Source: Pseudacidovorax sp.
GTDB lineage: Bacteria; Pseudomonadota; Gammaproteobacteria; Burkholderiales; Burkholderiaceae_C
DNA length: 64,000 nucleotides
Direction: 5' to 3'
Assembly: GCF_017991995.1 (NCBI RefSeq)
Contig: NZ_JAGOPN010000012.1
Location: forward strand, 1-64,000
In this document: piece after piece, positions 43,895 to 59,353 of the stretch
Layout: each line of letters opens with the position of its first letter
Numbering within the stretch: the first letter of the stretch is position 1
Notes under the pieces: generated by a model
Databases searched by the model: none
What the model was told of the DNA's origin: nothing
Seen by the model: only the letters and a program-made list of their open reading frames with translations
Made by a program: the position numbers and the translations under genes

Positions 43895-45457
43895 TCAGGC
43901 AGCCACGGGCGCGCTGGTGCGGATCAGGTGGTCGAAGGCGCTGAGTGCCGCCTTCGCGCCCTCCCCCGCGGCAATGATGATCTGCTTGTACGGCACCGTG
44001 GTGCAGTCACCCGCAGCGAACACACCCGGCACCGAGGTCTGGCCCTTGGCGTCCACGATGATCTCGCCGTGGCGAGACAGCTCGACCGTGCCCTTGAGCC
44101 AGTCGGTGTTCGGCACCAGGCCGATCTGGATGAACACGCCTTCCAGGTCCACACGCTGCTCCTGGCCGGTCGCGCGATCCTTGTAGGTCAGGCCGTTCAC
44201 CTTGTCGGTGCCGGTGATGGATGTGGTCTGCGCGTTGGTCAGCACCGTCACGTTGGGCAAGCTGGCGAGCTTGCGCTGCAACACCGCATCGGCGCGCAAC
44301 TGGGTGTCGAACTCGATCAGCGTCACATGGCCCACGATGCCGGCCAGGTCGATGGCCGCCTCGACGCCGGAGTTGCCGCCGCCGATCACCGCCACGCGCT
44401 TGCCCTTGAACAGCGGGCCGTCGCAGTGCGGGCAGTAGGCCACGCCCTTGTTCTTGAACTCCTGCTCGCCCGGCACGTTGATGTTGCGCCAGCGGGCACC
44501 GGTCGACAGGATCACGGTCTTGGCCTTGAGCGTGGCGCCGCTTTCCATGCGCACTTCGATCAGGTCATTGCCCGGCACCAGCGCCGATGCACGCTGCAGG
44601 TTCATCACGTCCACGTCGTAATGGCGAACGTGCTCGTCCAGCGCCAGCGCGAAGTGCGGGCCTTGCGTCTCCTTGACGGAGATGAAGTTCTCGATGCCCA
44701 GCGTGTCCAGCACTTGGCCGCCGAAGCGCTCTGCCGCCACGCCGGTGCGGATGCCCTTGCGGGCCGCGTACACCGCTGCCGCAGCGCCTGCCGGGCCGCC
44801 GCCGACGATCAGCACGTCGAAGGCTTCCTTTGCGCTGAGCTTCTTGGCCTCGCGCTCGACGCCGCTGGTGTCGATCTTGGCCAGGATCTCTTCCAGACTC
44901 ATGCGCCCCGAGCCGAACATCTGGCCGTTCATGAACACGGTGGGCACGCCCATGATCTGGCGGTCCTCGATCTCCTTCTGGAAGGTGCCGCCTTCGATCA
45001 TGGTGGTCTTGATGCGCGGGTTCTGCACGGCCATCAGGTTCAGGGCCTGCACCACGTCCGGGCAGTTGTGGCAGGTAAGCGAAACGTAGACCTCGAATTC
45101 GAAGTCGCCGTCGAGTTGCTTGATCTGGTCGAGGATGGCCTGCTCCACCTTGGGCGGATAGCCGCCCTGCTGCAGCATCGCCAGGATCAGCGAGGTGAAT
45201 TCATGACCCATGGGCAGGCCGGCAAAGCGCGGGCCGTCGGTCTGGCCAGGCTTGTTGATCGAGAACGAGGGCTTGCGGTCATTGCTCTCGGCGTGGTCGA
45301 TCACGGTGACCAGCTTCGACGTGCTGGCGATGTCCTGGAGCAACTCGCGCGTCTGTGCCGACGCCGGCGAGTCGTCCAGCGCAGCCACGATCTCGATGGG
45401 CTGGGAAATGCGCTCCAGGTAGCTGGAAAGCTGGGCTTTGGTGGCGGCGTCAAGCAT
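43895..45457 (-). CDS. ahpF: Alkyl hydroperoxide reductase subunit F
   Basis: FAD and NAD(P)H enzyme that re-reduces AhpC; 520 residues. N-terminal double thioredoxin domain with Cys129-Cys132 (CHNC), an FAD domain starting [21 protein letters not shown], the redox pair Cys342-Cys345 (CPHC), and the NAD domain [16 protein letters not shown], closing with [15 protein letters not shown]. It matches enterobacterial AhpF in every motif. It is downstream of ahpC, but a terminator lies between, so it probably has its own promoter or depends on read-through. Confidence 0.96.
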
Positions 45458-45562
45458 GGCGGTGTCTTTCTGGCGTTCGGGTCTTCAATGGGAGATGGGC
45501 CTCGGGGCGTTGGCCCGACGGCGGGGCTCGTCTCCAGCATCTAGGGACGGGCCGGCAATAAA

Positions 45563-45597
45563 AAAGCCCGAGTCACAAGGGTGCCCCGGGCTCGGGG
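45563..45597 (-). terminator. Terminator between ahpC and ahpF (minus strand)
   Basis: On the minus strand: stem AGCCCG with CGGGCT (or the alternative CCCGAG with CTCGGG), then TTTTTTATT. It would limit read-through from ahpC into ahpF, a common way to make more AhpC than AhpF. Confidence 0.7.
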
Positions 45598-45709
45598 GCA
45601 GCTGCTGCGCAGCCGCCCGGCAGGCAGGTTCAGGCGTGCGCCGTCCATCCCTCCACAGCGGAGAGCATCTGGTACGGGAAGCCTGACGCCAGCCGGGCGA
45701 AGGGCATGC

Positions 45710-46273
45710 TCAGATCTTGCCGACCAGGTCGAAGGAAGGCTTCAGGGTGGCGGCGCCTTCTTCCCACTTGGCGGGGCAGACTTCGCCGGGGTGGGCAGCG
45801 ACGTACTGCGCGGCCTTGACCTTGCGCAGCAGGTCCTTGGCGTCACGGCCGATGCCTTCGGCGGTGATTTCCAGCGCCTGGATCACGCCTTGCGGGTCGA
45901 CGATGAAGGTGCCGCGGTTGGCCAGGCCCTGGTCTTCACGCAGCACTTCGAAGTTGCGGCTGATGGCCAGCGTGGGGTCGCCGATCATCGTGTACTTGAT
46001 CTTGCCGATGGTCTCGGACGAGTCGTGCCAGGCCTTGTGGGTGAAGTGGGTGTCGGTCGAGACCGAGTAGATCTCCACGCCCATCTTCTGGAACTCGGCG
46101 TAGTGGTCGGCCACGTCGCCCAGCTCGGTCGGGCACACGAAGGTGAAGTCGGCCGGGTAGAAGAAGAAGACGGACCACTTGCCCTTGACGTCGTCGCTGG
46201 AGACGTCGACGAACTTGCCGTCCTTGTAAGCGGTGGCCTTGAAGGGCTTGATTTCGGTGTTGATCACGGACAT
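45710..46273 (-). CDS. ahpC: Alkyl hydroperoxide reductase subunit C (peroxiredoxin)
   Basis: Typical 2-Cys peroxiredoxin that reduces hydrogen peroxide and organic peroxides; 187 residues. The peroxidatic Cys47 is in FTFVCPTE and the resolving Cys166 in EVCPAKW. The start [13 protein letters not shown] is the family start, so ATG 46273 is used. Its product is recycled by AhpF encoded downstream. The upstream region holds an OxyR-like site and a -10 (TATACT). bfr is divergent. Confidence 0.96.
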
Positions 46274-46313
46274 GTGCGGTTCCTCTTGAGGTCGAAAAAA
46301 CTTGCGAGGCTCT

Positions 46314-46319
46314 AGTATA
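46314..46319 (-). promoter_or_regulatory. ahpC: Candidate ahpC -10 box
   Basis: TATACT on the minus strand, 40 bases before the ahpC start. The matching -35 position falls at the edge of the OxyR-like site, as expected for an OxyR-activated promoter with a weak -35. Confidence 0.5.
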
Positions 46320-46340
46320 TGCATGAGCTAAAGGAAATTG

Positions 46341-46377: not shown

Positions 46378-46526
46378 GACGAAGTCGGTGTGCGCGGCCC
46401 GACCGATACGAACGCCTCTCACGATCAAACGCATGCAGACCAGACCGGCCGGGTCTTGCCTTGTGGGCACTGGAGAGCGCCCGCACAATCCGCCACTTCG
46501 GGACCCTCCGGTCCGAGGACGAGAAC

Positions 46527-47003
46527 ATGCAAGGCGATCTCCAGGTCATCGATCATCTCCAGGCCCAGCTCAAGATCGAGTTGACGGCCATCAACCAGTA
46601 CTTCCTTCATTACCGGATGCTCAAGCATTGGGGCTTCGACAAGCTGGCGAAGAAGGAATATTCCGAATCCATCGAAGCCATGAAGCACGCGGACAAGTTG
46701 ATGGACCGCATCTTCATGCTGGACGGCCTGCCGAACCTGCAGGACCTGGGCAAGCTCAACGTGGGCGAGGACGTGCCCGAGATCCTCGACTGCGATCTGC
46801 GCACCGAGCAGGGCTCGCAGGCCACGCTCAAGGCTGGCATCGCCTACTGCGAGTCGGTCCGCGACTTCGTCTCTCGCGACCTGCTGGAGGACATCCTGGA
46901 AGACGCCGAAGAGCAGATCGACTTCCTGGAAACGCAGATCGATCTGGTCGGCAAGGTGGGCCTGCAGAACTATCTGCAGTCGCAGATGGGCGACGCCGGC
47001 TGA
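46527..47003 (+). CDS. bfr: Bacterioferritin
   Basis: Haem-containing iron-storage ferritin of 158 residues. The ferroxidase ligands lie in [31 protein letters not shown] (with E-x-x-x-H) and [19 protein letters not shown] Met (near residue 52, [11 protein letters not shown]) matches the usual haem ligand position. ATG 46527 starts [11 protein letters not shown], the family start. It is divergent from ahpC, linking iron storage to peroxide defence. Bfd, which helps release this iron, is encoded 8 kb further on. Confidence 0.95.
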
Positions 47004-47174: not shown

Positions 47175-47193
47175 AATAACATCGATTCTCATT
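47175..47193 (+). promoter_or_regulatory. Fur-like box before the PepSY gene
   Basis: The right half ATTCTCATT (47185-47193) equals the conserved Fur half-site; the left half is weaker. A -10-like TAGAAT (47202-47207) lies nine bases downstream and the start codon 11 bases after that. Iron-dependent repression of the five-gene unit downstream is inferred. Confidence 0.55.
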
Positions 47194-47218
47194 TGCGCCC
47201 ATAGAATCCGCGGCGCCG

Positions 47219-47863
47219 ATGACACCTCCCGCCTCTTCCGCCCGCCGCGCCTGCTGGCTCAAGACCCTGCATGAATGGCACTGGGTGAGTTCGGCCTTGT
47301 GCCTGGTGGGCATGCTGCTGTTCAGCCTCACGGGCATCACGCTCAACCATGCGGCGGACATCGAAGCCAGGCCGAACGTCGTCCATCGGACAGCCACCTT
47401 GCCGCCGACGCTGCGCGGCGCCTTGCGGCAGCAGCAGGCTGAAGTCGACGGCCAGCACCACGGCCGCGCCCCCGCGCCAGCCGCCCTGGCGGCATGGCTG
47501 AAGTCGCAGTGGGCCATCGACGCCGGCGGGCACGAGGCCGAATGGTCGGCCGACGAGTTCTACCTGTCCCTGCCCCGACCGGGCGGCGATGCGTGGGTGC
47601 GCATCGCGCTGGACGACGGCAGCGCCGAATACGAACGGACCGATCGCGGCTGGATCGCCTACCTCAACGACCTGCACAAGGGGCGCCACACCGGGCCGGC
47701 GTGGCAGTGGTTCATCGACGTGTTCGCTGGCGCGGCCCTCCTCTTCTCGCTGACGGGCCTGCTCATCCTGAAGATGCATGCGGGCCGCCGCCCCTTCACG
47801 TGGCCGATGGTCGGTCTGGGTCTGCTCGCGCCTCTGCTGCTGGCATTGCTGCTCATCCATTGA
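47219..47863 (+). CDS. PepSY-associated transmembrane protein
   Basis: Inner-membrane protein of 214 residues with three hydrophobic segments: about 23-40 (VSSALCLVGMLLFSLTGITL), 166-186 (FAGAALLFSLTGLLIL) and 196-213. Histidines flank the first two (LHEWHWVSS, LNHAAD; DLHKGRHTG, KMHAG) and could bind haem, as in PepSY proteins such as the siderophore reductase FoxB. The loop between is a PepSY-like periplasmic domain. First gene of a five-gene unit under a Fur-like box; I infer transfer of electrons across the membrane to iron. Confidence 0.75.
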   Translation: MTPPASSARRACWLKTLHEWHWVSSALCLVGMLLFSLTGITLNHAADIEARPNVVHRTATLPPTLRGALRQQQAEVDGQHHGRAPAPAALAAWLKSQWAIDAGGHEAEWSADEFYLSLPRPGGDAWVRIALDDGSAEYERTDRGWIAYLNDLHKGRHTGPAWQWFIDVFAGAALLFSLTGLLILKMHAGRRPFTWPMVGLGLLAPLLLALLLIH

Positions 47864-47910
47864 CCGACTCGCCACCGCCTTTTCCTCGCTTCTCTTTCAA
47901 AGGACGCTCC

Positions 47911-48444
47911 GTGCAGCTTCGCTATCCCCTTGCGCCTCTCACCTTGTCGATGCTGTTCGCCGGCCCGGCCGCAGCTGCCGGGCTCGGTGTCAACATCGAG
48001 ATCCCGCGCCTTTCCGTGTCCGAGTACCACCGGCCCTATGTGGCGGCGTGGATCGAGCGGCCCGACAACACCGTGGCCACGACGCTGGCCGTCTGGTACG
48101 ACGTGCGCACCCGCGCCAACAACCCCGAGGGCGAAGGCACCAAGTGGCTCAAGGATCTGCGCCAATGGTGGCGGCGCACGGGCCGCGAGCTGTCGGTGCC
48201 CATCGATGGCGTGACCGGCGCCACCAAGCCGGCAGGGCGCCATGCGCTCGCCTTCACCGAAGGCAGCAAGCCGCTTGGCCAACTGGCGCCCGGCAGCTAC
48301 AGGCTTGTCGTCGAGGCTGCCCGCGAGGTCGGCGGCCGCGAGGTGGTGACCGTCCCCTTCCAGTGGCCGCCCGCGAAGGCCGAGCAGGCGGGCGCCGCCG
48401 GCAAGGAAGAGTTGGGCGAGATCAGGCTCGAGCTCAAGCCCTGA
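47911..48444 (+). CDS. DUF2271 exported protein with ApbE flavinylation motif
   Basis: Exported protein of 177 residues. Signal peptide with cleavage near AAA-GLG (about residue 24), then the DUF2271 domain (VNIEIPRLSVSEYHRPYVAAWIE is its hallmark region). Residues 99-105, DGVTGAT, fit the D-x-x-T/S-G-A-T/S motif on which ApbE places FMN, with Thr105 the likely linkage. An apbE gene is two genes downstream. GTG 47911 has AAAGGA before it. Known DUF2271 proteins are linked to flavin-based redox in the periplasm; electron transfer to ferric siderophore is my inference. Confidence 0.78.
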   Translation: MQLRYPLAPLTLSMLFAGPAAAAGLGVNIEIPRLSVSEYHRPYVAAWIERPDNTVATTLAVWYDVRTRANNPEGEGTKWLKDLRQWWRRTGRELSVPIDGVTGATKPAGRHALAFTEGSKPLGQLAPGSYRLVVEAAREVGGREVVTVPFQWPPAKAEQAGAAGKEELGEIRLELKP

Positions 48445-48485
48445 CCGATTGCCAACTGATCCCTGCCCTTCTCTGGAGCCCTTTC

Positions 48486-49289
48486 ATGCGAATTCCCTTC
48501 CGCCTTGCGACCCTTGCCCTGGGCCTCTGCGCCGCCGTCGCCGCCCAGGCCCACAACCTCTGGCTGCTGCCCTCCACCACCGTCCTGTCCAAGCCCGACT
48601 GGGTGACAGTGGACGGTGCCGTCTCCAACGACCTGTTCGTCGCCAACCATTTCCCGCTCAACCTCGACAACCTGCAGGTCACGGGCCCCGACGGCGCAGC
48701 CGTCAAGCCCGAGAACCTGGCCAGGCTCAAGTACCGCAGCGTGTTCGACCTGAACCTCGCGCAGTCGGGCACCTACCGTATTGCCGTGATCAACAGCGGC
48801 GTCTTCGCCAGCTGGAAGGACAAGGCCACCGGCCAGCCCCGCCGTGCGCGCGGCACGGCCGAGACCATCGGCCGCGAGATCCCCGCGGATGCGCAGGACG
48901 TCGCAGTCACGCAGTCGCTGGGCCGCGTGGAAACCTTCGTCTCGGTGGGCAAGCCGACGGCACTCAAGCCGGCGGGCCAGGGACTCGAACTCGTGGCAAC
49001 GGGCAGCGCCACCGACCACGCCAAGGGCGAAAAATCCGCGTTCACGCTGCTGCTCGACGGCCAGCCAGCGGCGGGACTGGAGGTGACAGTCACGCAAGGC
49101 AACACCGTCTACCGCGACAAGCTGAATGAAACGACCGTCAAGACCGATGCGCAGGGGCGGTTCGACGTCACCTGGCCCGCGGCCGGCATGTACTGGCTGG
49201 AAGCGAGCACGCGCGATACCAAGACCTCGCTGCCGCAGGCCAAGGAACGGCGGCTGAGCTACGCGGCCACGCTCGAAGTCCTGCCCTGA
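48486..49289 (+). CDS. DUF4198 exported protein
   Basis: Periplasmic protein of 267 residues. Signal peptide ending AAQA, so that the mature protein would begin HNLWLLPS with a free N-terminal histidine. The C-terminal third (VTVTQGNTVYRDK, then TDAQGRFDVTWPAAGMYWLEA) has an Ig-like or carboxypeptidase-regulatory-like pattern. DUF4198 proteins often accompany metal uptake genes and may bind metal; this is not proven. It sits between the DUF2271 and apbE genes. Confidence 0.78.
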   Translation: MRIPFRLATLALGLCAAVAAQAHNLWLLPSTTVLSKPDWVTVDGAVSNDLFVANHFPLNLDNLQVTGPDGAAVKPENLARLKYRSVFDLNLAQSGTYRIAVINSGVFASWKDKATGQPRRARGTAETIGREIPADAQDVAVTQSLGRVETFVSVGKPTALKPAGQGLELVATGSATDHAKGEKSAFTLLLDGQPAAGLEVTVTQGNTVYRDKLNETTVKTDAQGRFDVTWPAAGMYWLEASTRDTKTSLPQAKERRLSYAATLEVLP

Positions 49290-49291
49290 GC

Positions 49292-50368
49292 GTGAGCAGC
49301 CCATCATCCACCGAGCGCAACCGCATGGCCGGGATGCCTGCGCTGTCCTTCGCCCGCTGGCAGGCCGGCGGCTACGCGCAGGTGCGCATGCCCCGAGCGG
49401 CCGACCCTGCGCGACTGCAGGCGCTGTCGGGCCAGACCATGGGCACCCACTGGTCGCTCCGGCTGGACAACCCGCGGATGCTGCCGCGGGGCGACGTGTG
49501 TGCGGCGGTCGAGGCGGTGCTGGCGGATGTCGTTGCGCAGATGAGCCATTGGGTGAGGGATTCCGCACTCGGCCGCTTCAATGACGCACCACCCGGCAGC
49601 TGGCACGCGCTGCCGGAAGGGCTCGCCCAGGTGCTCGGTCGTGCCCTCCAATGGGCGAAGGCAAGCGGTGGCGCCTTCGATCCGACGCTGGGCGCGTTGG
49701 TCGCGGCCTGGGGTTTCGGGCCGGACGCCAGCGCCTCGCCCGCATGGCCGGACCCGCACACACTGGCGACGGCCCGCGAACGCTGCGGCTGGCACCGGCT
49801 CGATCTGCGGAGCGACGAGGGTGGCAGATCGGCCAGACAGCCCGGCAGCCTGAGACTGGACCTGTCCGGCATCGCCAAGGGCCATGCCGTGGACCGCGTC
49901 GCCGAGGCGCTCGCGGCCATGGGACTGCGGGACTTCCTCTTCGAGATCGGCGGCGAGCTGATCGCCCGCGGTCAACGCCCGGACGGACAGCCGTGGCGGG
50001 TGCAGGTCGCCGCCGCTGCCACGGATGCCCAGGCGCCGCTGCTGCTGCCATTGCGCGACGAAGCCGTGGCCACCTCGGGCGATCACTGGCATGTGCGGGA
50101 GCACGCGGGGCGGCACTGGTCGCACACGCTCGATCCCCGCACGGGCAAGCCGGTCGGCCACGCCCTGGCCGCGGTGACCGTGGTGCACCCCGCCTGCATG
50201 GATGCGGATGCGCTGGCCACGCTGCTCACGGTCATGGGCCCCGAGGAGGGGTTGGCCTTCGCCGACCTGCATCAGGTGGCCGCGCTCTTCACCGAGCGCA
50301 AGCCGGATGGCACGCTGCGCCGGCTGGCCAGCCGGTGCTGGCGCTTCGGCATCGGCGCAGCTTCGTGA
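49292..50368 (+). CDS. apbE: FAD:protein FMN transferase (ApbE family)
   Basis: Attaches FMN from FAD to Thr or Ser in target proteins. 358 residues with MGTHWSLRLD, LSGIAKGHAVDRVAEAL, FEIGGELIARGQRPDG, SHTLDPRTGKPVG and CMDADALATLLTVMG, which include the magnesium-binding aspartates. No signal peptide or lipobox is visible at the GTG start (49292; ATG 49325 is an alternative), so it looks cytosolic. The nearby DUF2271 protein is its probable target. It overlaps the next gene by four bases. Confidence 0.9.
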   Translation: MSSPSSTERNRMAGMPALSFARWQAGGYAQVRMPRAADPARLQALSGQTMGTHWSLRLDNPRMLPRGDVCAAVEAVLADVVAQMSHWVRDSALGRFNDAPPGSWHALPEGLAQVLGRALQWAKASGGAFDPTLGALVAAWGFGPDASASPAWPDPHTLATARERCGWHRLDLRSDEGGRSARQPGSLRLDLSGIAKGHAVDRVAEALAAMGLRDFLFEIGGELIARGQRPDGQPWRVQVAAAATDAQAPLLLPLRDEAVATSGDHWHVREHAGRHWSHTLDPRTGKPVGHALAAVTVVHPACMDADALATLLTVMGPEEGLAFADLHQVAALFTERKPDGTLRRLASRCWRFGIGAAS

Positions 50369-51720
50369 GCGAAGCGCTGCGTCACTGGTCGGCTGGCGGC
50401 GCCATGCTGGCCTATGCCGCGCTGTGCGCCGCCATCTACGCCAGACAACGGCGGCAGGCGAGGACGCGGGCTGCGGCGGCTGCGGGCCTGGCTGGCACAG
50501 CCGCCTCCCCGGTGCTGGTCGTGCATGCCACGCAGACGGGCCTGGCCGAGCAGTGGGCCTGGGTCACTGCAGAAGCCCTTCACCGCGGCGGCACGCCCGC
50601 GCGCGTGCTGCCCCTCAACGCATTGGACGCCGACCTGCTGGCCGGCACGTCCCGCGCCTTGTTCATCGCCAGCACCTACGGCGAAGGCGACGCACCCGAT
50701 GGCGCCAGCGCGTTCGCCGATGCGGTGATGCGCGAACCGGCCGCGCTGGCCCGCTTGCGCTATGCCGTGCTGGCGCTGGGGGACCGGCAGTACGCGCAGT
50801 TCTGCGGCTTCGGCCGGCGGCTGGATGCCTGGCTCCAGGCAGCGGGCGCCACGCCCGAGTTCGCCCGCATCGACGTGGATCGCGGCGATCCCGATGCGCT
50901 GCAGCGCTGGCACCAGCACCTCGGCCTGATCGCGCCTGCCGCCAGCGCTGGCGCCGAAGCCGCCTTCCACCCCTGGACCCTGCGCCAGCGCGAGCACCTG
51001 AATCCGGGCAGTCTGGGCGGGCCGATCCATCGCCTGCACCTTCAGGCACCTGCCGGCATGACCCCGCGCTGGGAGGCGGGCGACCTGGTCGACCTCCACC
51101 TGGACAGCGACCCCACGCGGCCCCGCGCCTACTCGATCTGCTCCATTCCCGAGGAAGGCGATCTGCAGCTGATGGTGCGGCAGACCCGGCATCCGGACGG
51201 CCGGCCTGGTGCCGCGTCGGGGCTGCTGACAGAGACGCTGCAGCCAGGCCAGTCGGTGCCGCTGCGGCTGCGCCCCCATCCCGGCTCCCGCCTGCACCCC
51301 GACGCGCAACGACCTCTGCTGCTGATCGGCAATGGCACCGGCCTGGCCGGCCTGCGGGCGCTGCTGCGCGAGCGCATCCGGCGCGGGCAGCATGAGAACT
51401 GGCTGGTCTTCGGCGAGCGGCAACGCGCGCACGACCGACTGCTCGACGACGAATTGACCGCGTGGCAGGCCGAGGGCCGTCTGGCGCGGCTGGACCGGGT
51501 CTTCTCCCGCGACGACGACGATGGCGCCTATGTCCAGCACCGCCTGCTGCGCGAAGCGGCACAGGTGAGCGCCTGGTGCGAGCGTGGCGCGGTCATCCAC
51601 GTCTGCGGCAGCCTGCAGGGCATGGCCTCGGCGGTGGACCTCGCGCTGCGCCAGATCCTGGGCGAGCCGGCGATGCAGTTGCTCCACCGCGAAGGCCGTT
51701 ACCGGCGCGACGTGTACTGA
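50365..51720 (+). CDS. Membrane-anchored flavodoxin-FAD reductase (CysJ-like)
   Basis: 451 residues: one N-terminal membrane helix (about 8-23), a flavodoxin domain (about 50-190; VLVVHATQTGLAEQWAWV, STYGEGDAP, LALGDRQYAQFCGFGRRLD), an FAD-binding domain (RAYSICSIPEEG) and an NADP domain (LLIGNGTGLAGLRALLRERI, then HVCGSLQGMA). This is the layout of cytochrome P450 reductase and CysJ. It overlaps apbE (GTGA). I infer it takes electrons from NADPH in the cytosol and passes them to the PepSY membrane protein. Confidence 0.88.
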   Translation: MSEALRHWSAGGAMLAYAALCAAIYARQRRQARTRAAAAAGLAGTAASPVLVVHATQTGLAEQWAWVTAEALHRGGTPARVLPLNALDADLLAGTSRALFIASTYGEGDAPDGASAFADAVMREPAALARLRYAVLALGDRQYAQFCGFGRRLDAWLQAAGATPEFARIDVDRGDPDALQRWHQHLGLIAPAASAGAEAAFHPWTLRQREHLNPGSLGGPIHRLHLQAPAGMTPRWEAGDLVDLHLDSDPTRPRAYSICSIPEEGDLQLMVRQTRHPDGRPGAASGLLTETLQPGQSVPLRLRPHPGSRLHPDAQRPLLLIGNGTGLAGLRALLRERIRRGQHENWLVFGERQRAHDRLLDDELTAWQAEGRLARLDRVFSRDDDDGAYVQHRLLREAAQVSAWCERGAVIHVCGSLQGMASAVDLALRQILGEPAMQLLHREGRYRRDVY

Positions 51721-51826: not shown

Positions 51827-51845
51827 TTGCGAGTCGTTATCATTC
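51827..51845 (+). promoter_or_regulatory. Fur-like box before the TonB-dependent receptor
   Basis: The sequence around TTGCGAGTCGTTATCATT holds a near-consensus right half (GTTATCATT) and a partial left half. It lies about 105 bases before the receptor start. Confidence 0.5.
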
Positions 51846-51950
51846 ACGGTGCTGCAGCATCGACTGCTGTGGCTCCTGCCAGCCACGCGCCCTCCCCGTT
51901 GCGCCAGCCAAGCGAAACACGCAACGCAATCAGCTTCCGGAGGGAATCCC

Positions 51951-54278
51951 ATGGCACAACACATCAAGAGCCGCAAACACGCGGTGCCGCGCAAAGCTGC
52001 GGGCTGGACCGGCGCCGCCGCCGCCACGCTCGTGGCCATCGCCGCGCCTGCGGGCGCGCAGACCGCCTCGTCCACCACCGATACCACCGCCAGCACCAGC
52101 ACGCTGCGCGAAGTCCGCGTGGAGGGCGCCCGCGAGTCGTTCAAGGCCGACACCGTCTCCTCGCCCAAGTTCACGCAGCCGCTGGTCGACACGCCGCAGA
52201 CCATCACTGTCATCAAGAAGGAAGTGCTGCAGGAGCAGGGTGCCAACACCCTGACCGAGGCGCTGCGCAACACGCCCGGCATCACCTTCCAGATGGGCGA
52301 GAACGGCAACACCTCGACCGGCGACGCCGTCTTCCTGCGCGGCTTCGACAGCTCCGGCAGCATCTTCGTGGACGGCGCGCGCGACGTCGGCACCGTCACG
52401 CGCGACATGTTCAACGTCGAGCAGGTCGAGGTGGTCAAGGGCCCGGCCAGCGCCGACATCGGCCGCACCGCGCCCACCGGCTACATCAACCTGGTGAGCA
52501 AGGTGCCGCAGGCCTCCAATTTCTTCGCTGGCAGCGTGAGCCTGGGTTCGGGCGACCAGAAGCGCGCGACCGCCGACATCAACCGCGTGCTCAACGCCGA
52601 GGGCACGATGGCCCTGCGCCTGAACGTGATGACGCAGGACAGCGGCGTGCCGGGCAGGGACGATGTCAAGAACAAGGGCTGGGCCATTGCGCCGTCCATC
52701 GCCTTCGGGCTGAACACGCCGACGCGGGTGATCCTGCAGTACCAGCACGTCAACCAGCGCAACAGGCCGGACGGCGGCATTCCCACCGTCGGCCTGAAGG
52801 GCTACTACCTGGACCAGTTGAAAGGCATCGGCGGCAATGGCCCGCAGCCCGACACCAGCAACTACTACGGCTGGCTGTCCGACCACGACAACGTGGACGC
52901 CGACATGTTCACGGCCCGGATCGAGCACGACTTCGACTCCGGCGTGAAGCTGCGCAACCTCACGCGCTGGGGCCGCACCGACCAGGACCTGGTTCTCACC
53001 GCCCCCTTCAGCAACGGGCTGCTGACGCCCTCGGTCACCAACCCGCTGACCTGGTCGACGCGGGTGCTGCCGCAGGGCAAGGGCCAGCGCAACGAGATCC
53101 TGACCAACCAGACCAACGTGACGGCCGAGGCCACCACGGGCAGCATCAGGCATTCGATCAGCGCTGGCCTGGAACTGGCGCGCGAGCAGCAGGACAACAC
53201 CACGATGGCCGCCACCATCAATGCGGCCAACGGCGTGCGCACGGTGTCGGCCGGGACGGTGTCCTACCAGGCCTACAACAGCCTGTACATGCCGAACCCG
53301 TACCGCGCCTTCGTGCCCGTGCTGCCCACCGGCGCCACCACCGAAGGCACGACCAGCACGGCCGCGCTGTATGCCTTCGACACGCTCAAGTTCAACGAAC
53401 AGTGGCAGCTCACGGGCGGCCTGCGCTGGGAGCATTACCGCACCCGCTTCACCAGCCTGGCCGCGCCGGTGAATGGTGTGCAGACGGCGCTCACGCAGGA
53501 GGGCTCGGACAACCTTCTGACCGGCAAGCTCGGCGTCGTCTACAAGCCGGCGGACAACGGCAGCGTCTACGCCGCCTATGCGACCGGCGCGCAGCCGCCG
53601 GGCGGCAACTTCAGCTTCCCCACGTCGCTGACCACCGCCAACGTCAACAACCTGAGCCTCGATCCGCAGAAATCCAAGACCTTCGAGCTCGGCACCAAAT
53701 GGGATGTGCTGGACAGGCGCCTCGCACTGTCGGCCGCCGCCTTCCGCACCACGAACGAGAACGAACAGGTGCAGGTCGACACTTTCGGCAACTTCGAGCA
53801 GTACGGCAAGACGCGCGTGCAGGGCCTGGAGCTGAGCGCGGTCGGCCAGATCACGCCGGCCTGGCAGGTCATCGGCGGTCTGGCGCGCATCGACACCAAG
53901 ATCCTCGAAGGCTCGCGTACCAGCACCACGCAGAACGGCGCACAGATCCGCTATTCGCCCAAGCTCACGGCCACGCTGTGGACGAGCTACAAGTTCCCCT
54001 TCGGCCTGACGGTCGGCGGCGGTGTGCGCTACGTGTCGACCCAGCAACGCTCCACCTCCACGGCGGCGATCACGCCCACCAGCTTCTTCCCCGAGGTGCC
54101 GAGCTACACCGTGTGGGATGCGATGGTGGGTTATGAGATCAACCGCAACGTCAGCATCCAGCTGAACCTGTACAACCTGGCCGACAAGTTCTACCTGGCG
54201 CGGGTGAACAACGGCGGCAACCGGCTGGTCATGGGTACGCCGCGCTCGGCACTGCTGAGCGCCAACTTCCGCTTCTGA
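51951..54278 (+). CDS. TonB-dependent siderophore receptor (Fiu/FhuE-like)
   Basis: Outer-membrane ferric-siderophore receptor of 775 residues. Signal peptide to about AGAQ (residue 37), TonB box region near [12 protein letters not shown], plug domain ([15 protein letters not shown], then [19 protein letters not shown] and [13 protein letters not shown]), then the beta-barrel, ending LLSANFRF with a terminal Phe. The plug and barrel pattern fits the catecholate group. A Fur-like box lies upstream, and a PiuC-type dioxygenase gene follows, the common pair with Fiu/PiuA. Confidence 0.92.
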
Positions 54279-54361: not shown

Positions 54362-55042
54362 ATGATGGTCCATGTCCCCGAAGTCCTGAACCCCGAGCAG
54401 GTGCGGCAGCTGCGTGCGGCGCTGGACGCCGCCGAGTGGATCGACGGCCGCGACTCGGCGGGCCCGCAGGGCGCGCGGGTCAAGAACAACCGGCAGCTCT
54501 CGGAGCAGTCGCCCGTCGCCCAGGAACTGGGCGGCGTGATCCGCGAGGCGCTGGCCCGGCATCCGCAATTCTTCTCGGCGGCCCTGCCTCTGCGGGTGGT
54601 GCCGCCGATGTTCAACCGCTACGAGGGCGGCGAGACCTATGGCCTGCATGTTGACGGCTCGGTGCGCTCCCTGCCGGGCGGCGGCGGACAGCTGCGCACG
54701 GACCTGTCGTGCACGCTCTTCCTGTGCGACCCACAGGACTACGACGGCGGCGAACTGGAGGTGGTCGACACCTACGGCACGCACGAGGTCAAGCTGCCCG
54801 CGGGAGACCTGGTGCTGTATCCGTCGAGCAGCCTGCACCGCGTGCAGCCGGTGACGCGCGGCGCGCGGGTGTGCTCCTTCTTCTGGCTGCAGAGCATGGT
54901 CCGCGACGACGCCCGCCGCGGACTGCTGTTCGAGCTGGACCAGAACATCCAGAGCCTGCGCGCCCGCCTCGGCGAGACCGACGAGACGGTGGCGCTGACC
55001 GGCACATACCACAACCTGCTGCGGATGTGGGCCGAGGTGTAG
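54362..55042 (+). CDS. Fe(II)/2-oxoglutarate dioxygenase, PiuC type (PKHD hydroxylase)
   Basis: Oxygenase of 226 residues with the iron ligands His96, Asp98 (in GLHVDGS) and His159 ([11 protein letters not shown]) and the oxoglutarate-binding Arg168. The full-length match to the PiuC/YbiX family is clear. Genes of this type usually stand beside catecholate siderophore receptors, as here. Its substrate is unknown. ATG 54362 is preceded by GAGGAGA. Confidence 0.92.
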
Positions 55043-55160: not shown

Positions 55161-55433
55161 ATGATCGTCTGTGTATGCCGCCGAGTGTCGGACCGCGAGA
55201 TCGTGCGGCATGCCCGTGCAGGCATGAGTTTCGACGAGATCCAATTCGAGCTCGGTGTGGCCACCCAGTGCGGCCGCTGCGAAACCTGTGCCCGCGACGT
55301 GGTGGCCCAATGCAGTGCGTCGCATCCGGTTGCCGCCCTTCACAGCGACATCGAACCCCGCGCGATCCAGCTTGCCACTGCCATCACGGAGAGCAAAGCA
55401 TGGAATTCGTCGCAGCCCTCGTCGGCGGCCTGA
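55161..55433 (+). CDS. bfd: Bacterioferritin-associated ferredoxin
   Basis: [2Fe-2S] protein of 90 residues that docks on bacterioferritin and helps release stored iron. The cluster cysteines are Cys4 and Cys6 (VCVC) and Cys37 and Cys40 (CGRC). The C-terminal tail is longer than in E. coli Bfd (64 residues). It has its own strong promoter with a Fur-like box, and bfr lies 8 kb upstream on the same strand. A small open frame overlaps its 3' end. Confidence 0.92.
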   Translation: MIVCVCRRVSDREIVRHARAGMSFDEIQFELGVATQCGRCETCARDVVAQCSASHPVAALHSDIEPRAIQLATAITESKAWNSSQPSSAA

Positions 55434-55471: not shown

Positions 55472-55537
55472 ATCCTCTTTTCTGATCTACGCTCACCGGC
55501 TCTGCATGCATGGCCGGGCTGTGTTTCTGGGTTGACC

Positions 55538-56254
55538 GTGTCGAGCCGCTTTTCCTCTCCCCCCTCTTCTCCCCTCGGCGTCTCCCGCACGACCTTGATC
55601 GTCGGCGGCGTGGTGCTCTTCCATGCCGCAGCGCTCTGGGCGCTGCAGAGCGGGCTCATCCGCAAGGCCGCCGAAGTGATCGTGCCGGTGGAGATCCTGG
55701 CGCAGATCATCGAGCCGCCCCGGCCGGCACCACCGCCGCCGCCCCCACCGCCGCCGCCCGCTCCACCGCAGAAGCAGGCACCCAAGCCTCCGCCCCGGCC
55801 GATTGCGATCCGGGAGCCCAAGCCGGTGCCGGCTCCCAACGCGCCCACCGGCGTGGTGGAGCCGCCGCCCGTCACCGCGCCGGCGCCCATGCCACCCGCG
55901 CCGCCGGCGCCTGCCGCCCCCGTCGCGCCACCTGCACCGGTCGCGCCGCCGGCACCGCGGCTGGTGGAGGTCACGCAGGGACAGACCACCTACGTGCGCG
56001 AACCACGCGCGACCTACCCGACCATGAGCCGCAAGCTCGGCGAGACGGGCACCGTGGTGGTGGCCGTCTATTTCAATGCCGACGGTATGGCCAAGCGGGC
56101 CGAGATCGCCAAGTCCAGCGGCTACGAGCGGCTGGACCAGGCCGCGCTGAGCGCGGCCATGACTGCGCAGGTGACGCCCTTCCGCCAGTTGGGCGGCGGC
56201 GACGCCCAGACGGTGTACCTGCTGCGCGCCCCCTTCAACTTCGTCCTGAACTGA
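55538..56254 (+). CDS. tonB: Energy transducer TonB
   Basis: Periplasm-spanning protein of 238 residues that powers outer-membrane receptors. N-terminal membrane helix (about 18-38, LIVGGVVLFHAAALWALQ), a very proline-rich spacer (about 60-145), and the C-terminal TonB domain (YPTMSRKLGETGTVVVAVYF, SGYERLDQAAL). The start is either GTG 55538 or TTG 55532. exbB and exbD follow directly, giving the complete complex next to the iron receptor. Confidence 0.9.
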   Translation: MSSRFSSPPSSPLGVSRTTLIVGGVVLFHAAALWALQSGLIRKAAEVIVPVEILAQIIEPPRPAPPPPPPPPPPAPPQKQAPKPPPRPIAIREPKPVPAPNAPTGVVEPPPVTAPAPMPPAPPAPAAPVAPPAPVAPPAPRLVEVTQGQTTYVREPRATYPTMSRKLGETGTVVVAVYFNADGMAKRAEIAKSSGYERLDQAALSAAMTAQVTPFRQLGGGDAQTVYLLRAPFNFVLN

Positions 56255-56994: not shown

Positions 56995-57408
56995 ATGGCC
57001 TTCGGAACCCAGGACGAAGCCGACGACGTGATGAACGAGATCAACATGACGCCCCTGGTGGACGTCATGCTGGTGTTGCTCATCATCTTCATCATCACCG
57101 TACCGGTGATGAAGCATGCGGTGAACATCGACCTGCCGCGCGCCACCAACGAGCGCGAGGAGACCAAGCCGCAGACCATCCAGCTGAGCGTGGCCGCCGA
57201 TGGCAGCTACTTCTGGAACCAGGAAAAGATCGACGACGCGACGATGGTGTCGCGCCTGGCGGCCGAAGGCGCGCGCGATCCGCAGCCTGAACTGCACATC
57301 CGCGGCGACAAGGACGTGCGCTACGAACGCGTCGCCACGGCCATGGCCGCCGCCCAGAAGGCCGGCGTGCACAAGATCGGTTTCATCACCGATCCGACGC
57401 CGCAGTAA
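56995..57408 (+). CDS. exbD: Biopolymer transport protein ExbD
   Basis: Inner-membrane partner of ExbB, 137 residues. One N-terminal helix with the essential acidic residue in NMTPLVDVMLVLLIIFIIT (Asp23), and a periplasmic domain (PQTIQLSVAADGSYFWN, then HIRGDKDVRYERV). ATG 56995 is used; it gives the normal length. A terminator follows at 57449. Confidence 0.94.
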   Translation: MAFGTQDEADDVMNEINMTPLVDVMLVLLIIFIITVPVMKHAVNIDLPRATNEREETKPQTIQLSVAADGSYFWNQEKIDDATMVSRLAAEGARDPQPELHIRGDKDVRYERVATAMAAAQKAGVHKIGFITDPTPQ

Positions 57409-57575: not shown

Positions 57576-57605
57576 TTGCTTTTATAAGTGCGAATCGTTA
57601 TCATT
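57576..57605 (+). promoter_or_regulatory. hemP: hemP promoter region with Fur-like box
   Basis: AGTGCGAATCGTTATCATT (57587-57605) fits the Fur site in 17 of 19 positions. Candidate promoter: TTGCTT (57576-57581), 17 bases, TATCAT (57599-57604), so the box would cover the spacer and the -10. Confidence 0.68.
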
Positions 57606-57646
57606 TGCTCATCCGCTTCACCGATCCGATTCGAAAGGTCCATCCC

Positions 57647-58651: not shown

Positions 58652-59353
58652 ATGAACGACAGAGCCCCCACCTTCGACACACCGGCCGGCTACGGCCAGG
58701 TGCTGCCCCAGGCAGAGCGCCACCGCGTTCTGCGCAATACCTACTGGCTGCTCGCGCTGAGCATGATTCCCACCGTACTGGGCGCTTGGCTCGGCGTGGC
58801 CACCGGCATCACAGCCGCGCTCACGGGCGGGCTCGGCCTGGTGGTCTTCCTGGCCGGTGCCTTCGGCTTCATGTTCGCCATCGAGAAGACCAAGAACTCG
58901 GCCGCTGGCGTGCCCGTGCTGCTGGGCTTCACCTTCTTCATGGGACTGATGCTGTCGCGGCTGATCGCGATGGTGCTGGGCTTCAAGAACGGCTCCGAGC
59001 TGGTGATGACCGCCTTCGCGGGCACGGCTGGCGTGTTCTTCGTGATGGCATCGCTGGCCACGGTGATCAAGCGGGACCTGAGCGGCATGGGCAAGTTCCT
59101 GTTCGTGGGCGTGCTGGTGCTCTTCGTCGGCTCGATCATCAATGTCTTCATCGGCTCCAGCGCCGGCATGATGGCGATCTCGGTCGCGGCCATCGGCATC
59201 TTCTCGGCCTACATGCTGTACGACCTGAAGCAGATCATCGACGGCGGCGAGACCAACTACATCAGCGCCACGCTCGCGCTCTATCTGGACGTGTTCAACG
59301 TCTTCCAGAGCCTGCTGGCCCTGCTGGGCATCTTCGGAGGCGAGCGCGACTGA
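58652..59353 (+). CDS. Bax inhibitor-1/YccA family membrane protein
   Basis: Seven-helix inner-membrane protein of 233 residues. Hydrophobic segments near 32-50, 54-72, 83-102, 111-131, 139-158, 162-184 and 207-226, with the family end region [20 protein letters not shown] followed by LYLDVFNVF. YccA members modulate FtsH. A TAGAAT -10-like element lies at 58594-58599 and a good ribosome site (CAGGAG) precedes ATG 58652. Confidence 0.92.

Follow-up and report, generated by a model that had tools for sequence, protein, structure and literature searches.

The window analysed here, a stretch of 64,000 nucleotides from a 6.24-Mb Pseudacidovorax sp. genome (contig NZ_JAGOPN010000012.1, assembly GCF_017991995.1), carries a five-gene unit at positions 47219-51720 that encodes, in order, a PepSY_TM_like_2 membrane protein, a DUF2271 protein, a DUF4198 protein, the transferase ApbE and a flavodoxin/ferredoxin-NADP-reductase (FNR) protein. 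We consider it probable that the unit forms a trans-membrane electron path and serves iron acquisition as a ferric reductase induced by iron starvation. A preliminary description of this DNA, made from the sequence without database searches, had placed the five genes here, and profile matches bear out each of them (PF16357, PF10029, PF10670, PF02424, and PF00258 with PF00175). The DUF2271 protein is 97% identical in the nearest named relatives, Pseudacidovorax intermedius DSM 21352 and Pseudacidovorax sp. NFM-22.

In the proposed path, electrons from reduced nicotinamide adenine dinucleotide phosphate (NADPH) would pass to the membrane-anchored reductase (50365-51720), carrying flavin adenine dinucleotide (FAD) and flavin mononucleotide (FMN), and on to the PepSY haems, which would conduct them across the membrane to FMN fixed on exported DUF2271. 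The FMN-DUF2271 would in turn reduce Fe(III) that the Fiu-type receptor encoded next to the unit, or another receptor, has brought to the periplasm, and the resulting Fe(II) would enter through FeoB, which is encoded in the window's own genome. Our guess is that DUF4198 probably assists in binding the iron complex or in presenting it; PiuC, encoded downstream, probably processes the same imported ligand. Because the ApbE of the cluster has no signal peptide, the DUF2271 precursor most likely receives its FMN while still in the cytosol, with cytosolic FAD as the source, and Sec export would follow. The preliminary description had read the unit as a similar chain ending on a ferric siderophore. 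The order reductase, PepSY, FMN-DUF2271 and iron stands and is already in print (PMC8238504, main text); the ferric siderophore is a candidate, not an established, specific substrate.

Conservation and parts of the electron path

Three sets of loci were compared. The named loci, mostly from Comamonadaceae and not independent of each other, are the best 80 of 315 relatives retrieved with the DUF2271 protein. The family sample comprises 100 evenly drawn genomes from 99 genera, the window's own included; DUF2271 is found in 18 of them, which gives, besides the window, ten split-type loci and seven loci with a more divergent DUF2271, referred to below as the sister architecture. The phylum sample comprises 249 genomes, again with the window's own, of which 33 have a DUF2271 match, 30 above the cut-off; outside the window it holds 30 loci above the cut-off from 29 genomes, and profiles recognise the DUF2271 gene in 23 of these loci, two of them atypical (L167 and L174). 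All five genes stand in order in 75/80 named, 8/10 split-type family-sample and 7/23 phylum-sample loci, and PepSY, DUF2271 and DUF4198 do so in 78/80, 9/10 and 19/23, respectively. This gene order is not due to chance.

The DUF2271 protein carries the flavinylation motif DGVTGAT, as already noticed in the preliminary description, and the last Thr of the motif is invariant in 36/36 sequences (alignment A3). This putative acceptor is residue 85 of the stretch 47971-48441 and lies, in the structural model, just past a stretch of lower confidence (residues 51-80; predicted local distance difference test, pLDDT, 53-62). A motif-like pattern is present in 111/114 DUF2271 proteins, in 4/115 reductases and 2/112 DUF4198 proteins, and in none of the PepSY (0/111) and ApbE (0/113) proteins. 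Within the cluster, DUF2271 is the only protein that regularly carries the motif, and the same counts speak against another ApbE target in the cluster. That the protein is flavinylated would follow by analogy with the DUF2271 of A. ursilacus, for which the main text of PMC8238504 reports flavinylation and its abolition when the Thr is changed to Ala. In the sister architecture, DUF2271 has an xGAS motif and, by eye, a Sec-like leader in 14/14 loci.

A sequence search with alignment A3 gave weak matches only, the best being FlgD (E 0.002-0.004) in the C-terminal half of DUF2271. The atypical locus L174 (G225:C4) represents a second DUF2271-like gene of a trio-bearing genome, with AGAT in place of the usual motif; the part that was read shows no clear leader.

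In the PepSY protein, His18, His21, His153, His187 and His214 are invariant and His44 is conserved in at least 90% of 36 sequences (alignment A2), in line with the earlier remark on histidines flanking its helices. The AlphaFold2 model (mean pLDDT 86.8) has long helices at residues 5-43, 159-188 and 194-213. His18 and His21 lie in the first half of helix 5-43 and His44 just past it, while His153 is in a short helix ahead of helix 159-188, His187 ends that helix and His214 is just past the last one. The protein is a probable di-haem trans-membrane electron carrier, the two haems being suggested by analogy with FoxB. It counts against the proposed path that Foldseek, given the PepSY and DUF2271 models, returned no solved structure at E<=0.001; for that reason the likeness of PepSY to FoxB rests on a partial Pfam match (PF03929, profile positions 174-291 of 295). 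A sequence search with alignment A2 matched no solved structure. Four further PepSY_TM genes in the window's genome (contigs C34, C27, C13 and C5) match the profile nearly in full and are perhaps FoxB-type reductases.

The reductase has an N-terminal hydrophobic segment that appears, by eye, to be a membrane anchor. Its match to the cysJ profile is partial (TIGR01931, 200.9 bits vs. a cut-off of 668.15), and to judge from its sequence the protein would work like CysJ; it is not CysJ. It is CysJ-like but far under the CysJ cut-off, and NADPH is accordingly a putative donor. That the reductase feeds PepSY is best supported by the sister architecture, where PepSY_TM, flavodoxin and NAD-binding domains are found on one polypeptide in 2/2 open reading frames (ORFs) tested. 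A long reductase ORF is seen in 6/7 family-sample loci with divergent DUF2271, and the seventh is cut by a contig end. Such a single chain suggests that electrons would flow from the flavodoxin-FNR part to PepSY.

A different role was suggested for Alteromonas, where DUF4198/DUF2271 pairs are tied to iron-responsive receptors and the PepSY proteins near these receptors are read as permeases (PMC7190382, main text). That the PepSY protein of the window is a siderophore permease instead of an electron carrier seems very improbable to us, given that conserved His lie close to either end of the long helices, that the sister PepSY is fused to a flavodoxin/FNR reductase, and that ApbE and flavoproteins accompany PepSY in most named loci and most split-type loci of the family sample.

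Leaders of ApbE and of its target

Leaders were called from any in-frame start as a hydrophobic 11-mer (mean Kyte-Doolittle value >=1.8, without D, E, K, R, H, N or Q), preceded by a basic residue and followed by a small-x-small site. Among distinct members, a leader was called in only 3/110 cluster-locus ApbE proteins, compared with 78/95 DUF2271 and 94/99 DUF4198 proteins; the counts were 0/72 for PiuC, 0/38 for bacterioferritin, 2/25 for Bfd and 2/101 for PepSY. The contrast is also seen within genomes. All ApbE proteins above the Pfam cut-off were surveyed in 47 DUF2271-bearing genomes (18 of the family sample, including the window's, and 29 of the phylum sample), and a leader was called in 0/36 cluster vs. 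24/34 non-cluster ApbEs (Fisher p=3.7e-11, the genomes being related and not independent). By eye, 27/34 of the non-cluster proteins have a leader. Not counted were a contig-end fragment (L145), the fusion (L167/L205), a match under the cut-off (L218) and, for the split matches in G079 and G013, the second half of each. Of the 36 cluster proteins, one (L122, genome G094) is on another contig than DUF2271 and was placed in the cluster by likeness and contig ends.

In 20/47 genomes the cluster ApbE, which is leaderless, is the only one; these are seven genomes from the family sample (counting G079, with two matches in one frame) and 13 from the phylum sample. The window's genome has one further ApbE above the cut-off, likewise without a called leader, and the ApbEs of the sister architecture are leaderless as well. 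The window's ApbE is full-length: it covers PF02424 from 1 to 266 of 266, and residues 41-343 align with the FMN transferase 5mgy at 203 bits. By hydrophobicity alone, two cluster ApbEs reach the limit (L189, 1.80; L204, 2.13), without the other leader features. The cluster ApbE tails show an SFA-like pattern in 67/108 and a RILIP-like one in 13/108; both are non-hydrophobic, stand at the position of a leader and are possibly docking motifs.

In a tree of 98 ApbE rows, the cluster ApbEs fall into two groups, one of 53 rows (Shimodaira-Hasegawa-like approximate likelihood ratio test, SH-aLRT, 98), which includes two leader-bearing gammaproteobacterial proteins, and one of 10 rows (99). Both lie within a 76-row group (95) that otherwise consists of leader-bearing ApbEs; the ApbE-DUF2271 fusion L167 is placed elsewhere on a long branch. 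This quick tree, with open forks, fits one or two losses of the leader and a regain, or several losses.

The pattern RRxhh is found in 4/104 DUF2271 leader regions, of which two at most look plausible by eye, so Sec is likelier than twin-arginine translocation (Tat), and Tat export of folded, flavinylated DUF2271 is disfavoured. Sec carries precursors across unfolded. Since the DUF2271 leaders are Sec-like, the precursor should therefore cross in that state. As for recognition, a truncated V. cholerae ApbE modifies N- or C-terminal peptide tags with DxxxGA[T/S] (PMC10722498, main text); recognition therefore seems to need little beyond the motif.

Several points weigh against flavinylation in the cytosol. 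The leader calls come from a home-made hydrophobicity rule and not from SignalP; the rule misses 17/95 DUF2271 proteins, most of them leader-like by eye, and the two Bfd proteins that it calls should have no leader. Three cluster ApbEs do bear a leader, namely those of Lysobacter maris (L103), of a gammaproteobacterial bin (L112) and of the fusion L167. Leaderlessness is moreover not unique to the cluster ApbE, because 7/34 non-cluster ApbEs also have none by eye. The methods of PMC8238504 describe the cognate ApbE of A. ursilacus as signal peptide-truncated, which speaks against full generality of cytosolic flavinylation. According to the review PMC12052999, an older study found ApbE function to require periplasmic localisation, and the cytoplasmic ApbE of Klebsiella serves a cytoplasmic target.

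It is possible that the cluster ApbE is exported without a classical signal, or that its tail is an unrecognised signal, and that it modifies DUF2271 in the periplasm; this concerns the cytosolic step only. Most characterised ApbEs are periplasmic lipoproteins (PMC12052999), and the cluster ApbE of Lysobacter maris, with its leader, would fit such a route. Three Azoarcus/Parazoarcus loci (L100, L101 and L105) have no ApbE in the fetched stretch and keep the motif as DGVTSAT. Nine phylum-sample genomes likewise show no ApbE in the fetched cluster stretch, and each of them encodes, at another place, an ApbE with a called leader and, by eye, a lipobox. A periplasmic route for such substrates therefore probably exists. 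For the cluster ApbE itself we regard it as rather unlikely, as none of the 36 surveyed proteins has a callable leader and, the fusion apart, no Tat motif or lipobox was seen by eye in the printed cluster ApbE tails.

Returning to cytosolic attachment, we would put at about even the prospect that proteobacterial DUF2271 systems generally use a cytosolic flavin transferase whose flavinylated product, still a precursor, is then exported by Sec, with no need of an FAD exporter. If so, the usual order of export followed by flavinylation would be reversed, and a family that modifies its precursor inside the cell would demonstrate that Sec can transport a protein with covalently bound FMN. Such a family would in addition account for extracytosolic flavoproteins in genomes where no leader-bearing ApbE is found, the window's included. 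The leader contrast makes the source of the flavin of periplasmic flavoproteins directly testable.

Iron context and regulation

The features around the unit are collected in Table 1. All genes are on the plus strand in close order, from bacterioferritin to TonB. The siderophore receptor that the preliminary description saw downstream is indeed present and of the catecholate Fiu type; the continuation into PiuC, Bfd and TonB had been missed, and so had the published precedent and ApbE's lack of a signal peptide. The DUF2271 start is probably GTG 47911, a correction; the ApbE start is uncertain (by eye GTG 49292, ATG 49325 or ATG 49334), and the reductase start, GTG 50365, overlaps the ApbE stop.

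Table 1 Features of the five-gene unit and its surroundings in the window
Feature	Position	Strand	Match and remarks
Bacterioferritin	46461..47003	+	TIGR00754 233.4 bits; present in 51/80 named loci
Fur-like box upstream of operon	47178..47196		12/19 vs. E. coli consensus
PepSY_TM_like_2 inner-membrane protein, 214 residues, three long predicted helices	47219..47863	+	PF16357 268.6 bits, PF03929 33.7 bits
DUF2271, Sec-type signal peptide, motif DGVTGAT	47911..48444	+	PF10029 168.3 bits
DUF4198, Sec-type signal peptide	48486..49289	+	PF10670 177 bits
ApbE, FAD:protein FMN transferase, no recognisable signal peptide	49292..50368	+	PF02424 260.8 bits
Flavodoxin + ferredoxin-NADP-reductase-like, CysJ-like protein	50365..51720	+	PF00258 78 bits, PF00175 39.8 bits
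Fur-like box before receptor gene	51829..51847		12/19 vs. E. coli consensus
Fiu/PiuA/CciT-type catecholate siderophore receptor	51951..54278	+	NF007349 821.4 bits, cut-off 686
PiuC/YbiX/CciO-type Fe(II)/2-oxoglutarate dioxygenase	54362..55042	+	NF003975 351.2 bits, cut-off 180
Bfd-like [2Fe-2S] protein	55161..55433	+	PF04324 35.3 bits
TonB	55532..56254	+	PF03544 55.7 bits

The reading given in the preliminary description predicts co-occurrence of the five genes with iron receptors in related genomes. The order of the five genes is kept, as given above; the receptor is less constant. Within the fetched stretch, a Fiu-like receptor is present in 59/80 named loci (a lower bound, since 17 of these loci span less than 20 kb), in 3/10 family-sample loci and, as a receptor-like match, in 16/23 phylum-sample loci. 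PiuC is linked in 63/80, 5/10 and 9/23 loci, respectively. Of the 80 named loci, 53 have both genes within the fetched stretch, 10, Xenophilus among them, have only PiuC, and 6 have only the receptor. In Xenophilus and its near relatives (L040-L045) PiuC comes directly after the reductase, with no receptor between. Because the receptor is optional across loci, siderophore specificity through a dedicated receptor is rejected as a general rule, and the failure to find a Fiu-like receptor nearby in 7/10 family-sample loci is a point against the proposed explanation.

Another possibility is that the same electron path ends on a different acceptor, such as Fe(III) in free or weakly chelated form, Cu(II) or some other oxidant. 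This would suit the loci in which the receptor is missing, as well as the phenotype of the Caulobacter locus CC_3059-3063, which was seen with ethylenediaminetetraacetic acid (EDTA): insertions in this locus, called PepSY-like in the main text of PMC12004947, and in cciT/cciO lower fitness. We nevertheless find it unlikely, in view of the frequent linkage of PiuC, whose type is reported beside Fiu/PiuA-type receptors (PMC12004947), and of Fur control in Caulobacter. Siderophore-bound iron would be a candidate substrate.

In Caulobacter, the main text of PMC3751524 reports that CC_3059-3063 is induced 12- to 44-fold when iron is limiting and 16- to 51-fold in a fur mutant, and that Fur binds the CC_3059 promoter in a gel shift. 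For the window's operon, Fur control may be expected by analogy with these results. The preliminary description had noted a Fur-like box ahead of the unit. Its upstream place is conserved, although the 12/19 match to the E. coli consensus is weak alone: the window has 17 positions with at least 12/19, vs. 10 in five Markov copies of 64 kb. Across 61 dereplicated upstream regions, the sites outscore Markov shuffles (p=1.5e-24, from related and not independent sequences), and the block AAAT...A.T.ATTCTCATTTG is conserved at >=70% per marked column. The best Fur-like sites of the window (13/19 each) are at 57590-57608, 57078-57096 and 59134-59152.

For Caulobacter, PMC3751524 also reports a riboflavin biosynthesis operon that is induced when iron is limiting and when fur is mutated; a need of iron uptake for flavin would agree with this. 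In the window, AhpF-like and AhpC-like peroxide-defence genes (43895-46324, minus strand; by eye from the ORF list) adjoin bacterioferritin and the iron island.

Comparison with known systems

PepSY-like flavinylation clusters with DUF2271, DUF4198 and ApbE were defined by Méheust 2021 (PMC8238504), who proposed a function in iron reduction. The window resembles them in its PepSY protein (PF16357/PF03929), the [S/T]GA[S/T] motif on DUF2271, DUF4198, ApbE, the iron association and the TonB-related neighbours. A PF03929 or PF16357 protein lies no more than five genes from ApbE/DUF2271, and the target with a signal peptide is, by the home-made rule, DUF2271, while the window's ApbE has none. Two differences stand out. 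The published set includes 1077 PepSY genes with an NAD-binding domain, whereas in the window this domain is on a separate protein; and the paper treats PepSY-like systems as extracytosolic flavinylation, its passages on them making no mention of leaderless ApbE. In the literature consulted, mostly open-access main texts without supplements or figures, we found no statement of cytosolic flavinylation of an exported ApbE substrate, and the leaderlessness of the cluster ApbE, a testable property, has apparently been overlooked.

The cytoplasmic ApbE of Klebsiella shares with that of the window the lack of a signal peptide; its target is the cytoplasmic soluble fumarate reductase, whereas the window's target has a Sec-type signal (PMC12052999). 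FoxB of P. aeruginosa and HiuB of Caulobacter appear to be related to the window's PepSY through PepSY_TM and to share with it conserved His, which in the window's protein are putative haem ligands. Unlike them, the window's protein is smaller, a single unit with accessory flavoproteins, and matches PF03929 only in part.

A closely similar arrangement is that of Caulobacter crescentus CC_3059-3063 (CCNA_03155-03159), where a transporter, DUF2271, DUF4198, ApbE and a sulfite reductase flavoprotein (PMC3751524) follow the same gene order as in the window. The Caulobacter counterparts of the receptor and the dioxygenase, cciT and cciO (CCNA_00028 and CCNA_00027), are at a separate locus. In the window, the pair corresponding to Fiu/PiuA/CciT and PiuC/YbiX/CciO is adjacent, with both members above the NCBIfam cut-offs, directly follows the PepSY/flavin operon and is co-directional with it. 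The window is a Pseudacidovorax-type member of the published class, with the PepSY operon and the Fiu/PiuC pair in one iron island.

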